This document shows, in pieces, positions 6,322-41,287 of a stretch of 41,310 nucleotides of DNA. Origin of the DNA: Oscillospiraceae bacterium (GTDB taxonomy: Bacteria; Bacillota; Clostridia; Oscillospirales; Acutalibacteraceae). The stretch covers positions 1 through 41,310 of the forward strand of contig CADAVL010000002.1 of the NCBI GenBank assembly GCA_902791335.1, written 5' to 3'. Every line of letters starts with the position of its first letter. Position 1 is the stretch's first letter. The notes beneath the pieces were generated by a model. That model searched no databases. It was not told the DNA's origin and saw nothing but the letters and a program-made list of their open reading frames with translations. The position numbers and the translations under genes were made by a program.

Positions 6322-6350
6322 ATTATAAAATGTACGAGTATAAAAATCAA
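6322..6350 (-). promoter_or_regulatory. Sigma-A-type promoter for lysR-queH
   Basis: Read on the minus strand, the -35 box is TTGATT (6345-6350) and the -10 box is TATAAT (6322-6327), spaced by 17 nt. It fires towards the LysR gene, giving a leader of about 35 nt that contains the dyad. Confidence 0.75.
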
Positions 6351-6440
6351 GTGGAAATGAATACTTTTTTTCGTTTGCAAATAATGAAAGCCAAATTTGT
6401 TGATTTTTGTAAAAAGAGTGCGCAGGAATTTAACCGTTTG

Positions 6441-6469
6441 TTGAAATTTATATCATTTTGTGCTATAGT
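6441..6469 (+). promoter_or_regulatory. Sigma-A-type promoter for the lipoprotein gene
   Basis: The -35 box TTGAAA (6441-6446) and -10 box TATAGT (6464-6469) are 17 nt apart. The start codon at 6492 follows after a leader of about 15 nt containing GGAGGG. Confidence 0.75.
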
Positions 6470-6491
6470 TAATAAAAACGGAGGGAATTTT

Positions 6492-7079
6492 ATGCTGAGA
6501 AAGATTCAAACGGTTTTGCCGATTCTTATAATGATAATGTTGCTATGCAGCGGCTGTTCGGGCAGCAATGTTTGGGAAGTACCTTCGGGGAATGCTTCGA
6601 GCAATAAGAACAGCATTGTTGAGAAAAACAAAATGCTTTGGAACAGTTCTGCGAGCAGCACGGACGCTGCCGCAGCTTCGTCATCCGTGAAAGTTCTCAC
6701 GGAAAGCGGTAAATCTTCCGGCAATGTTGTTTCTTCTGTAACGTCTGTTACTTCAAGCGTTTCTTCTGATAAGGTATCTTCTAAAGTATCTTCCTTCGGC
6801 AGAAATACGTCGTCCGAAAGCGGAAAGACGGTGAGCCGCTTGTCGTCGGGCAGTGCAAAAGGCAGTTTGTCAAAGAGTGTCAGTTCAAAGACTGCGAACA
6901 GTTCCGTGAAGACCACGTACAACACGGCCGATAAAGCCGGCAACATGGTCTGGATTCCGCAAAGCGGTTCAAAATATCACAAAAACGCCGGTTGCAGTAA
7001 AATGAAATCGCCCACAAAGGTTACAAGAGCCAAGGCGGAAAGTATGGGTTATACACCCTGCAAGCGGTGCTACAAATAA
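6492..7079 (+). CDS. Small lipoprotein with Ser/Thr-rich stalk and C-terminal Cys/His domain
   Basis: The start ATG at 6492 is preceded by GGAGGG and a good promoter; longer in-frame starts lie upstream of that promoter and are unlikely. The 195-residue product has a hydrophobic signal sequence ending in LLCSGC, read as a lipoprotein cleavage site although the -3 residue is Cys rather than the usual Leu/Val. A low-complexity stalk rich in Ser, Thr and Val (about residues 35-150) should span the cell wall. The last about 45 residues (VWIPQSGSKYHKNAGC ... GYTPCKRCYK) form a compact module with three Cys and a His, resembling the Ada-like metal-binding tail often found at the end of secreted clostridial nucleases and lipoproteins. 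Its function is not known. It is divergent from the LysR gene. Confidence 0.8.
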   Translation: MLRKIQTVLPILIMIMLLCSGCSGSNVWEVPSGNASSNKNSIVEKNKMLWNSSASSTDAAAASSSVKVLTESGKSSGNVVSSVTSVTSSVSSDKVSSKVSSFGRNTSSESGKTVSRLSSGSAKGSLSKSVSSKTANSSVKTTYNTADKAGNMVWIPQSGSKYHKNAGCSKMKSPTKVTRAKAESMGYTPCKRCYK

Positions 7080-7181: not shown

Positions 7182-7334
7182 AAACGTCAGCAATCCAAAA
7201 AGGGAGGTTCCCCGCGCGGCGCGCCTTTTTTCAGAAGAAAAAAGGCTTTAAAGCGGCCTTTAGGCCGCTTTACCGGCGTTTTTTTGCGCCGGCGCCGCGC
7301 GGGAAACCCGCCTTTTTTTGGACGGCTGACGTTT
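7182..7334. repeat. Cloverleaf palindrome, copy 1
   Basis: A 153-bp intergenic element. Its ends AAACGTCAGC (7182-7191) and GCTGACGTTT (7325-7334) pair perfectly. The stem continues inward with small mismatches and closes on a perfect 12-bp core CCCGCGCGGCGC (7211-7222) with 7292-7303. Inside are three hairpins in a row: a 10-bp stem at 7223-7246 (loop AGAA), a 10-bp stem at 7249-7272 (loop TTTA), and a 6-bp GC stem with a T-rich loop at about 7273-7291. The long T runs could also terminate transcription. The same plan recurs at 41147-41287. No protein is encoded; its origin and function are unknown. Confidence 0.8.
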
Positions 7335-11503: not shown

Positions 11504-12277
11504 ATGCCTAATGTTACCTTAATTTCGCACACGCCCGACCCTGAAAAGGTGGTGGCGGCCGCGGCCAAGCTTTGCTATTCTCATTCGGACGTTACCGAGA
11601 TCAGCGAAAATCTCACCGAAGAAAGCACGGCCAAATTTGTAAAAATGCTTTCAAGCTTTGGCCATGAAAGCCCGATCGAACACGTCAGCTTTACCTTTGG
11701 TATTGAGGGCGTTTCAAGAGCACTGTTAGCCCAGATCACAAGACACCGCATTGCCTCTTATTCCGTGCAAAGTCAGCGGTATGTCACCATGGACGATTTT
11801 CCGTTTGTGACGCCGCCGGAAATTGAAAACATTCCCGAAGCCAAAGCACTTTTTGAGGAAGCCATGGCGGCAGATCGGAACTATTACGACCGGCTTTCAA
11901 AGCTTTTAAAAGCGCACCATAAAAAAGAAAACCTCAGCTTAGGGTTGGACGAAAAGGCCGCCGATAAGGCCGCCGAGAAAAAAGCGAACGAGGACGCGCG
12001 CTTTGTTTTGCCGAATGCCTGCGAAACCAAAATGGTGGTTACCATGAACGCGCGCAGTCTTTTGAATTTCTTCAAGGTGCGGTGCTGCAGCCGCGCGCAG
12101 TGGGAAATTCGCGAGGTCGCCGAAAAAATGTACAGCCTTGTATACGCTGTGGCGCCGAATTTGTTTGCCGCCGCCGGTCCCTCCTGCGTAAGCGGTGCCT
12201 GCACCGAAGGAAAAATGACCTGCGGAAAGGCCGCAGAGGTTCGCAAAAAATACGAAAGCCTTAGAAAAGGGGAGTAG
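11504..12277 (+). CDS. thyX: FAD-dependent thymidylate synthase ThyX
   Basis: ThyX methylates dUMP to dTMP using methylene-THF and NADPH through FAD, and is unrelated to ThyA. The protein is 257 residues from ATG 11504, which has GGAG 8 nt upstream; an earlier in-frame ATG at 11477 falls inside the leader element. The signature RHRxxSxxxxSxR is present as R80-H81-R82, S85, S90 and R92. The C-terminal part holds [21 protein letters not shown], the nucleotide-binding and catalytic segment typical of ThyX. An internal Lys/Ala-rich helix ([17 protein letters not shown]) is a common family insertion. It heads an operon with thymidylate kinase and a folate enzyme, fitting dTTP and one-carbon metabolism. 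Confidence 0.97.
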
Positions 12278-36100: not shown

Positions 36101-36184
36101 AAGTTTTCTTAAAGAGTTCGCTGACAAGTATAAAACCTGTTGGCTGAATCATATGGATATTTGAAAATTAAAGGGGGTATGCGT

Positions 36185-37241
36185 ATGAGCGACGGAGCTT
36201 TGGAGGAGACAGTACTTTCCGGTTCCGTGGAACACATTACCTACAGCAATAAACAAAACGGATACTGCGTTTTTTCTTTGAAAACCGCCACCGAAACGAT
36301 CACTTGCGTTGGCACTGTACCGGAGCTTCATGCTGATGAGTCCTTGAAGGTTCACGGCGTTTACGGAATTCACCCAACCTACGGTCAGCAATTCAAGGTC
36401 ACAGCCTATGAACCGCTTGCACCGGAGGGCAGTGCCGAAATATTACGCTATCTTTCGTCCGGCGCGATCAAGGGAATCGGGCCTGCTACGGCAAGAAAAA
36501 TTGTGGAACGGTTCGGCTCGGATACGCTGGAAGTGATTGAAAACGATTATGCGCGCTTGAGCGCGATTCGCGGCATTTCACTTTCAAAAGCAAAGCAGAT
36601 CAGTGATAGCTATAAAAAGCAGCATGGAATTCGTGATGTAATGATGCAGCTTGGACGCTATGGAATCACGCCGGAGCAGTCAAATAAAATTTACGGGCTG
36701 CTCGGCAAGGACTGTGTTGCAAAAATTGCGGAAAATCCGTTTGTTTTGTATCATGACGACCTTGATTTCAGCTTTCAAAGGGTTTGTGATATTGCGGCGC
36801 AGTTCCATGTTGAGAACGACTCCATGGGTAGAATTCGCGCCGGCATGCAGTACATATTAAAGCACAATCTTTTAAACGGCCACACCTGTTTGCCGCACCA
36901 AAAGCTGATTGAACTGAGCACTTCTCTTTTACAATGTGAGGAATCGGCAGTCTTGGCCGCTTATGAGGAAATGCAGCGTGACGTTCTTTTGAAATGCGTG
37001 CAGATTGACGGCAAGGATTACGATTTTTTGCAGCGCTATTACACGGCAGAAAGGTATATTGCCACCAAATTTAAAATTATGCTCGATATTAAGCCGAAAC
37101 GCCTGAATACGCCCAAAGGGTTTATTGAGGCTTTGCAGAAAAAATTCGGCATTGTTTATGAAAAAAGACAACGGGAAGCGATCAACATGGCGGTTGATAA
37201 AGGACTGCTCGTGTTGACCGGCGGCCCGGGTACAGGTAAAA
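36185..37241 (+). CDS. recD2: RecD2-type DNA helicase, exon 1 (interrupted by group II intron)
   Basis: RecD2 is a 5'-3' superfamily 1B helicase in repair and replication-fork maintenance. ATG 36185 has AAAGGGGG 7 nt upstream; the ATG at 36179 is too close. Exon 1 encodes the N-terminal OB-like domain (VLSGSVEHITYSNKQNGYCVFSL), a helix-hairpin-helix block (IKGIGPATARKIVERF; LSAIRGISLSKAKQI) and motif I up to GGPGTGK (K352). The frame then runs into the intron and stops within about 50 nt. The exon ends GGTAAAA; the split codon A (37241) plus CA (38021-38022) encodes T353. Together with exon 2 the spliced gene is 2208 nt, 735 residues, the normal RecD2 length. Confidence 0.93.
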
Positions 37242-38020
37242 GTGTGACGCGTTCCTGCGTGAAAAGCGTAGGCCTTGCGGCTTGGAATTTTTAAAAAATT
37301 GCCGCATGAGAACTGATTTTTTGACGGACAGAATGACGGGGGTAACGCTCTTATAAATGTCCGCTCTGCAAACTGCGACGTGCGCGTGTTTTAAGTGATT
37401 TTTAGAATCTGCTTTTTAAAATGTGCGTTCGATAGCTCGCCAAAGTCGGCAGACGTTTTCCTAAAGCAAAGCCATGGAAAGCAATATGCCGGGAGTCTTT
37501 AAAACGTCTATGGTCAGAATGCCGCATGGTGTGGCTGACGAACCCGCGAATGTACGGACCTATAGTACCAATACTGAAAAGTATGCTGCAAATGTTGCGG
37601 CGTCAGTGAGGTTGAGTATTCTTTTTACTGAGAAAGACCTTATACCGTTACAGGCGGTATCCGGCTGACAGGTTCAGAGTGGGGACCTACGGGCGATAAT
37701 AGGAATATGATAGAAAAATCGGAACGCGGAAAGCTGAGGAACAAATCGGCAATTTAAAAGTTGTCGATTTGGCGGCGGCGAAGAAAATAAGCGCCCTTAT
37801 TCTTAGTGAGAGCGGTGCCACAGTACCTATGAAACAGTGATAACAAGCTGCGGAGGGATAGGCACCAGTCGCAAGCAGGCTTGAAAATGTATAAATATAC
37901 AAATTTTGTATATTTTGAAACCTGTCTGCGAGGGAACGCCGTATGAGGGGAAACTTTCACGTACGGTGTGGAGCGGGGGAAAATCCGGAAGTTTTTAATG
38001 AAAGGATTACCTATCGCTAT
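37242..38020 (+). mobile_element. Group II intron lacking an intron-encoded protein
   Basis: A 779-nt intron starting GTGTG (matching GUGYG) and ending CTAT (matching AY). Domain V (37936-37969) is a textbook 34-mer. Domain VI follows: AGCG (about 37972-37975) pairs with CGCT (38015-38018), AAATCC pairs with GGATT, and the likely branch A at 38013 is 8 nt from the 3' end. EBS1 TTTTAC (37623-37628) is complementary to the last six exon bases GTAAAA; EBS2 GTACC (37565-37569) matches exon GGTAC (37229-37233). Domain IV is reduced to an AT-rich hairpin (about 37880-37925) with no reverse-transcriptase gene. Splicing would need a maturase from elsewhere or be self-directed. All this is read by eye. 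Confidence 0.92.
37936..37969 (+). ncRNA. Group II intron domain V (catalytic hairpin)
   Basis: The 34 nt form an 8-bp lower stem (ACGCCGTA with TACGGTGT, one G-U), a 2-nt CG bulge on the 3' side, a 6-bp upper stem (TGAGGG with CTTTCA) and a GAAA tetraloop. The catalytic triad reads CGC at positions 2-4. This is the most conserved part of group II introns and is intact. Confidence 0.93.
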
Positions 38021-39171
38021 CAACGACCTTAAAAGGGGTTATCAGTCTTTTGGAAACCTCCGGTTTTGACGTGGCATTAGCGGCACCCACCGGACGCGCT
38101 GCTAAAAGAATGACCGAGCTTACCGGTCGCGAGTCAAAAACCATTCACCGACTTTTGGAGGTGGAATGGGACGAGCATGACAACCAGGTATTTACAAGAA
38201 ACGAGCACAATCCTTTAAGCTGCGACGCCATTATTATTGATGAAATGTCTATGGTGGATTCGCTGCTATTTGAATGCCTTTTGCGTGCGCTACCGCTGGG
38301 GTGCCGCATTATTATGGTCGGCGACGCGGATCAGCTGCCGAGTGTTGGTGCCGGAAACGTGCTCAGTGATATTATCTCTTCCGGTGTGGTGCCGGTGGTG
38401 GAATTAAAAGAAATCTTCCGCCAGGCGATGACAAGCCTTATTATTACCAATGCTCATAAAATTGTGGGGGGCGTACATCCGGAGCTTGACAGCAAAACCG
38501 GCGATATGTTTATGATCGACATTGTAAATCCGCGCAGTGCCGCGCAGTATATCAATGATCTTTGTGTGCGGCGACTGCCGAAAGCTTACGGTTATGACTG
38601 CATCAGTAACATTCAAATTCTGTGTCCCTCTAAAAAAACGGCGCTCGGCACGGTAACGCTCAATAATATGCTGCAAAATTCCTTAAATCCGCCGGACGAG
38701 CGTAAACCCGAAATTTCCTTTAAGGGCTACGTTTTGCGCTTGGGCGACAAAATTATGCAGATCAAAAATAATTATGATATTGAGTGGACACGTGACAACA
38801 ACGAAAAGGGCAGCGGCGTGTATAACGGCGATATCGGTGTGATTACCGACATCAATACGCTGAGTATGAAGCTGACCGTTCGTTTTGACGACAGGGTGGC
38901 GGTTTACAATGTGGAAGAAGCAAATCAGCTGGAGCTTTCCTATGCGGTCACCATTCACAAAAGTCAGGGCAGTGAGTTTGACTGCGTGATTTTGCCGATC
39001 CTCGACACGCCGCAAAAGCTTTGCTACCGAAATCTTCTTTATACGGCCGTTACAAGAGCCAAAAAGCAATTGATCATTGTGGGCGACAGAAGGCTGGTTC
39101 ATGAAATGACCGACAACTATCGCCGAACCCTTCGCTATACCGGATTGGATGCGTTTTTGAAAAATGAGTAA
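38021..39171 (+). CDS. recD2: RecD2-type DNA helicase, exon 2
   Basis: Continues the helicase after the intron. Base pair 38021-38022 completes codon 353 and the frame reads TTLKGVISLLETSGFDVALA, which continues motif I into the next helix. Later helicase motifs are intact: APTGRAAKRM (motif Ia), IIIDEMSMVD (Walker B), GDADQLPSVGAGNVL (motif III), ELKEIFRQA, and the C-terminal SYAVTIHKSQGSEFDCVILP and LLYTAVTRAKKQLIIVGD (motifs V and VI). It overlaps comF by 8 nt at its end. Taken alone it could be mistaken for a truncated helicase starting at TTG 38050, but that start has no ribosome binding site and lacks the P-loop. Confidence 0.93.
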
Positions 39172-41075: not shown

Positions 41076-41119
41076 AAAAGAGCGAACCGCAAAAAAAGTG
41101 GATAGCTCTTTTCTTTTTT
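41076..41119 (+). terminator. Rho-independent terminator after the MreB-like gene
   Basis: AAAAGAGC (41076-41083) pairs with GCTCTTTT (41105-41112), followed by CTTTTTT. The loop is long (21 nt) and A-rich. Confidence 0.78.
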
Positions 41120-41146: not shown

Positions 41147-41287
41147 AACGCACAAAAAAGCAAAAGCGGCAGTCTCCCGCGCGCCGTCGCCGAAAGGCAA
41201 CCGCCAAACTCGAAAGAGTTTGGCGGCGGACGTTTTTTAAAACGTCACGGCGCGCGGGAGACTGCCGCTTTTGCTTTTTTGTGCGTT
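41147..41287. repeat. Cloverleaf palindrome, copy 2 (perfect 41-bp outer stem)
   Basis: A 141-bp element. Bases 41147-41187 are an exact reverse complement of 41247-41287 (41 of 41). The core is CCCGCGCGCCG, close to that of copy 1. Between them lie three hairpins in a row: GCC-GAAA-GGC (41189-41198), an 11-bp stem with GAAA loop (41201-41226), and GACGTTTT/AAAACGTC (41229-41246), leaving only 6 unpaired linker bases. Sequence outside the core differs from copy 1 while pairing is kept, so structure rather than sequence appears conserved. It follows the MreB-like gene terminator and encodes no protein. Confidence 0.88.

Follow-up and report, generated by a model that had tools for sequence, protein, structure and literature searches.

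Dispersed cloverleaf palindromes of common descent in the intergenic DNA of an Oscillospiraceae genome

Two cloverleaf elements in the window

The stretch of DNA analyzed here (the window, 41,310 nucleotides) contains two copies of a palindromic element, both of them intergenic and separated by 34 kb (Table 1). Copy 1 is preceded by a plus-strand gene at 6330-7079 and followed by another plus-strand gene. It folds into an outer stem that closes exactly three hairpins, at -104.6 kcal/mol compared to -55.7 +/- 4.7 for dinucleotide shuffles (z -10.5), and copy 2 likewise consists of an outer stem and three hairpins (z -15.1), with outer arms of 41 nt each that are 100% complementary. Folding with DNA parameters produced the identical cloverleaf on both strands of both copies, with z values of -7.2 to -17.1. 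The block CCCGCGCG is found in both copies, and the pattern CCGCGCGN{55,85}CGCGCGG had 2 matches in the window against 0.01 expected. The initial annotation had thus described the cloverleaf plan, its coordinates, the shared block, and the intergenic setting and spacing of the two copies correctly. One point needs correction: the two copies are in mutually opposite orientation, since the succession of short, middle and long hairpins runs along the minus strand in copy 1 and along the plus strand in copy 2.

Table 1. Positions of the two cloverleaf elements, their parts and an adjacent hairpin in the window
Feature	Position	Strand	Basis
Copy 1, whole element	7182-7334	-	Fold z -10.5; covariance model R1 match 7186-7330, minus, E 8.4e-12
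Copy 1, outer-stem arm, left	7182-7222		Fold and inverted repeats
Copy 1, long A/T-rich hairpin (L)	7223-7246		Fold
Copy 1, middle hairpin (M)	7249-7272		Fold
Copy 1, short hairpin (S position)	7274-7291		Fold
Copy 1, outer-stem arm, right	7292-7334		Fold and inverted repeats
Copy 2, whole element	41147-41287	+	Fold z about -15; R1 match 41150-41284, plus, E 1.3e-12
Copy 2, outer-stem arm, left (41 nt, fully complementary to right arm)	41147-41187		Inverted repeat
Copy 2, short hairpin (S)	41189-41198		Fold
Copy 2, middle hairpin (M)	41201-41226		Fold
Copy 2, long A/T-rich hairpin (L)	41229-41246		Fold
Copy 2, outer-stem arm, right	41247-41287		Inverted repeat
Terminator-like hairpin and T-run, outside the element, between upstream gene and copy 2	41076-41119	+	Sequence reading

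Elsewhere in the window, group II intron signals (a D1-D4 piece and domain V in Rfam) were detected at 37308-38020, between two open reading frames (36140-37294 and 38050-39171) that by eye resemble the two halves of a RecD2-type helicase. Judging from these sequence signals, a group II intron may lie within a protein-coding gene at this position, and it may have no ORF of its own, given that a gap of about 700 nt could hardly encode an intron protein as well. ORF-less group II introns inside protein-coding genes are unusual in bacteria.

A family of common descent

The source assembly (G000) is fragmented and of metagenome type, with 2.1 Mb in 194 contigs and a completeness of 81%. We folded 1.06 Mb of it, in stretches amounting to half of the genome, end to end. 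With an outer stem of at least 25 bp and exactly three hairpins as filter, this sample contained about 74-78 elements, depending on the filter, and a strict count gave 72 elements in 1.02 Mb. The density of about 64-71 per Mb extrapolates to about 135-150 elements genome-wide; the lower values (about 64 per Mb, about 135 per genome) are obtained when seven small contigs that had been picked for pattern matches, with their 11 elements, are dropped. A loose pattern derived from CCCGCGCG matched 17 places in the genome, mostly clear cloverleaves, compared to 4 for the reversed control.

The elements are usually about 140-230 bp in size and have four helices: an outer inverted repeat of 25-60 bp that ends in a near-perfect four-way junction, and three hairpins joined by linkers of mostly 0-3 nt. 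The hairpins follow a fixed order: first a short one rich in G+C (mean 15 nt, 21% A+T), then the middle hairpin, and last a longer one. Their loops are short, 3 nt being the commonest size. In a subset of 24 aligned copies (subfamily A), the ends are sharp and shared, of the form (A)ACCGG...CCGGT(T), and conservation is highest in the GCGCGC core next to the junction and in the short hairpin. Most copies outside subfamily A have copy-specific outer arms and no common terminal repeats.

A covariance model (R1) trained on subfamily A alone recovered the two copies in the window as well as the majority of the elements detected by folding, generally at full length, indicating shared descent. The orientation of copies outside subfamily A follows from the hairpin-order rule and is therefore a definition rather than a test; for both window copies, the stronger strand of the R1 match agrees with it. 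Sequence comparison by BLAST connects about one third of the copies, and structure connects nearly all. The elements are a dispersed repeat family of common ancestry. The suggestion of a new dispersed repeat family in the initial annotation is borne out by about 74 intergenic elements in 1.06 Mb under one covariance model, and its own counter-possibilities, that only two copies exist or that their resemblance is chance GC-rich pairing, are clearly not the case.

Two loci (L045:14763-15140 and L048:2656-3047) carry the same two cloverleaves in tandem, separated by about 42 bp and in similar surroundings, which suggests that the pair was duplicated as a unit. Another dispersed repeat in the genome, about 250 bp long and unrelated to the cloverleaves (L048:2378-2639, L059:5042-5298, L072:1-103), has ends of the type AATCCGAA...TTCGGATT; the sequence AATAATCCGAAC was counted 5 times in the half of the genome that was sampled, and a look-alike of this repeat in a relative (L099:8982-9261) has a 25-bp outer stem and two branches. 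Finally, a 105-bp inverted repeat with 92% identity (L060:11093-11197 and 11944-12048) surrounds about 750 bp, possibly representing a small transposon or an invertible segment.

Genomic neighborhood of the elements

Gene context was derived with a home-made gene caller, which in the window misread the gene at 6330-7079 that precedes copy 1. Elements were located in 31 same-direction gaps, 24 convergent gaps and 6 divergent gaps, with 7 at the ends of stretches, and 10 elements overlapped weak or mis-called frames. One apparent gene overlap (L071:3846-4001) probably reflects a gene start called wrongly in front of a membrane-protein gene. Among gaps of at least 100 bp, convergent gaps carried an element more often than same-direction gaps (24 of 72 versus 31 of 272, p 4e-5), and within same-direction gaps the elements were nearer to the upstream stop (median 144 versus 240 bp, p 0.02). 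Element orientation showed no bias relative to the neighboring gene (13 same and 15 opposite in same-direction gaps), nor relative to GC skew or replication strand. Spacing was irregular, with a minimum of 394 bp and a median of 7 kb, and 9 of the 50 contigs had no element. Genes that precede elements had a terminator-like hairpin in 31 of 79 cases, compared to about 21% in length-matched controls (Fisher p 0.001), indicating that the elements do not replace terminators.

Maintenance of pairing

The outer arms within a copy are about 92% identical. Copies outside subfamily A are about 64% identical to one another when gaps are allowed, against a shuffled baseline of 57%. The middle hairpins of subfamily A behave in the same way, being 93% paired within a copy and 63% alike across copies. 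Since the arms of these middle hairpins range from 11 to 22 nt and are nevertheless paired to this extent, changes in length have been mirrored in both arms, which is more easily explained by arm-to-arm copying than by separate mutations.

In the 24-copy alignment, 33 of 58 pairs had changed on both sides. These both-side changes amounted to 95 cells compared to 24.9 +/- 4.5 in shuffles, a value reached in 0 of 500 shuffles, and the covariation signal was abolished by sliding the partner column. This alignment is a cleaner test than the comparison of two copies in which the initial annotation had noticed compensatory differences. Its further proposal, that structure is selected, goes beyond the data: pairing is maintained, but the mismatches lack the G-U excess expected of RNA-level selection, and mutational self-correction of the palindromes explains the pairing at least as well.

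Selection at the RNA level tolerates G-U pairs and does not tolerate A-C pairs. Counted with a symmetric aligner, 2172 outer-arm pairs contained 35 G·T and 54 A·C mismatches as well as 46 transversions, and tRNAs of the same genome, used as a control, had 30 G·T mismatches and no A·C mismatch among 345 pairs. The elements, unlike the tRNAs, have no G-U excess, indicating that pairing is kept in DNA and not in RNA. Arm pairing thus looks to be maintained at the DNA level, and nothing pointed to selection for pairing in RNA. At the curated Rfam thresholds, the elements had no match, and group II intron pieces were the only ones found; weak Rfam matches with E below 1 were far under the family thresholds.

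Distribution among other genomes

Searches with R1 of 60 relatives, of 300 genomes of the family (135 genera) and of 391 genomes of the class produced no match. These sets overlap in part and each included G000 as a positive control; the family and class scans scored 7-9 candidates per genome, so that weak single copies could escape them. A scan of related Clostridia, as the initial annotation had proposed, thus gave no occurrence. Matches to the CCGCGCG pattern in the 60 relatives resembled ordinary coding DNA. Folding, which does not depend on sequence similarity, was also applied to 1.37 Mb surrounding ligA in 80 named relatives, for the most part uncultured Clostridia and Oscillospiraceae, among which the nearest LigA is 63% identical; it detected 0 strict elements. 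In 0.35 Mb from other relatives, folding yielded 1 weak match, which we interpret as GC-rich coding DNA. Plasmid and phage records had no match, and viral contigs gave one 18-mer match, apparently in coding DNA. The best reading of these results is that the family is lineage-specific, having been detected in no other genome searched, with its genus represented by one genome.

Discussion

We have moderate confidence in the explanation that the elements are a lineage-specific family of REP/MITE-like intergenic palindromic DNA, with template-switch correction as the process that maintains the complementarity of the arms. Common descent, dispersal, intergenic location, and arms that remain complementary despite divergence are established by the results above. 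The family may once have spread as a non-autonomous element of the REP/MITE type, and would have been tolerated only in transcriptionally quiet intergenic DNA. During replication, a strand could snap back on itself, so that the polymerase copies one arm off the other (quasipalindrome template switching); by such copying, each element would re-perfect and lengthen its own arms while drifting from its sisters. The data do not require a benefit to the host. The sharp ends of subfamily A, together with unrelated flanks in which shared sequence or an insertion motif was limited to scattered short similarities, fit past spread, and it is these ends and the dispersal that point to mobility. The best full-length identity between copies is 0.89, indicating that any spread was not recent.

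To our knowledge, template-switch correction is known at single-locus mutation hotspots, and not as a force acting on entire repeat families. Template switching does perfect quasipalindromes in E. coli (PMC7202029). For the present family, it is the pattern of pairing that suggests this process, and the mismatch spectrum would look similar under selection for a DNA cruciform.

Several relatives carry clear copies of sbcC and sbcD side by side, which is the usual arrangement of these genes. In G000, which is 81% complete, we found no candidate for SbcD and no match for SbcC, a faint indication, given that the two genes are usually neighbors, that SbcCD is absent. The SbcCD nuclease attacks hairpins of this kind (PMC3733652), and its apparent lack may let the palindromes persist. 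Several relatives without SbcD are also without elements, which speaks against loss of SbcCD as the sole cause, and such a loss would be permissive at most.

It is conceivable, but unlikely, that the elements are instead host DNA sites, in which a protein recognizes the extruded cruciform or four-way junction and selection rather than templated repair keeps the arms paired; roles in nucleoid organization, topology, or the control of replication or recombination could be postulated. The fixed plan and order of three hairpins with their tight linkers, the wide dispersal, and the missing wobble bias, as DNA pairing predicts, are in agreement with such sites. Because the GCGCGC core at the junction and the short hairpin are best conserved, a host DNA-binding function is possible; this conservation is a hint that a protein recognizes these parts, something not expected from self-correction alone. 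However, the elements have no polarity to genes or GC skew, their spacing is irregular and some contigs are empty, they were found in a single genus represented by one genome, and the middle hairpin is free to vary in length and sequence. A structure acting in transcribed RNA, such as a bidirectional terminator, an mRNA 3' stabilizer or a regulatory RNA, would account for the position downstream of genes, the enrichment in convergent gaps and the very stable RNA fold. We nevertheless consider it improbable, in view of the mismatch comparison with tRNAs, the absence of orientation bias and of any Rfam family above threshold, and the finding that preceding genes more often have terminators of their own.

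The initial annotation had named a MITE or a REP-like element among its candidates. An ordinary MITE of a known insertion sequence family, mobilized in trans and now old, would be compatible with the dispersal, the unrelated flanks and the sharp AACCGG...CCGGTT ends of subfamily A, and yet several observations make it rather unlikely. Target-site duplication was not evident among the 24 copies of subfamily A, with a mean match of 1.2 nt against 1.4 by chance, and the sampled half of the genome contained no larger, inverted-repeat-flanked version that could be the autonomous partner. The only Y1 transposase found in the 81% complete genome (G000:C8:20848-21204, L086) is of the IS200 type with its own hairpin ends and no cloverleaf alongside, and no RAYT transposase was located next to the repeats. 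In an old MITE, moreover, the arms should decay as well, whereas they remain 92% alike while the copies are near chance. The REP-like candidate fails with respect to tags, with GTAG at 0 and CGTC at 5 of the 74 element ends. Folded single-strand recombination sites recognized by structure, as attC sites are, would also keep structure with little sequence (PMC2727003), but attC is a single imperfect hairpin and not a cloverleaf, the end boxes RYYYAAC / GTTRRRY occurred in 0 of 74 copies, and the spacing is unlike that of a cassette array, making this reading very improbable. Inverted chimeras produced during assembly might be suspected in a single fragmented, metagenome-type assembly of 194 contigs; with about 74 elements that share plan and ancestry, lie within contigs and are almost without exception intergenic, and with such folds at 3 of 84 contig ends against a background of 1.8%, which is not significant, an artifact is hardly credible.

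We also tentatively put forward the less probable idea that the heritable identity of these elements is a DNA shape and not a sequence. The family might then be a four-arm cloverleaf that templates itself, arm to arm, at each site and that spread in one genome, the junction rather than the letters being conserved or recognized.

These findings may be relevant beyond this genome. Repeat families are normally detected by sequence similarity, and given that BLAST connects a third of the copies and structure nearly all, similar families may go unnoticed elsewhere. Well over 100 palindromes with arms of 25-60 bp, which would be expected targets of SbcCD in E. coli, represent a natural experiment on palindrome stability. 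The comparison of mismatches expected for DNA and RNA, with tRNAs as internal control, provides a simple indicator of whether a fold is kept in DNA or in RNA. Should arm-to-arm templating be the cause, compensatory change arises by mutation alone, and caution would be needed in taking covariation as proof of RNA structure.

Comparison with known repeats

In our search of the literature, which covered mainly openly accessible titles, no cloverleaf repeat family was found. A survey of stem-loop repeats recognized 92 families; in 47 of these the members have a stem-loop in common, and in 10 a "more complex" fold (PMC2267715), and we found no cloverleaf among the family descriptions of that survey. 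Like REPs and BIMEs, the elements are high in copy number and extragenic, and lie mostly downstream of genes in same-direction and convergent gaps. REPs, however, are 20-40 bp long, carry GTAG or CGTC tags and have similar sequences within a family, and GTAG REPs are linked to RAYT transposases, with some REP dimers forming larger hairpins (PMC3733652); the elements described here are usually about 140-230 bp, consist of one stem and three hairpins, are untagged and have nearly unrelated sequences. With MITEs, bcr1, ERIC, NEMIS and the stem-loop families of the survey (PMC2267715) they share a dispersed, intergenic, non-coding and lineage-specific occurrence and inverted-repeat ends, and they differ from these repeats in having no target-site duplication and no partner element, and in terminal repeats that are mostly not common to the copies. 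Integron attC sites are alike in that structure is kept without sequence conservation and the DNA itself folds (PMC2727003), but the present elements have no R-box ends, form no cassette array and are of another architecture. In quasipalindrome template switching, imperfect inverted repeats are made perfect (PMC7202029), which is the kind of upkeep that we infer here. Overall, the elements resemble known extragenic palindromes in their genomic habits, but differ from them in plan, size and sequence divergence (PMC3733652, PMC2267715).
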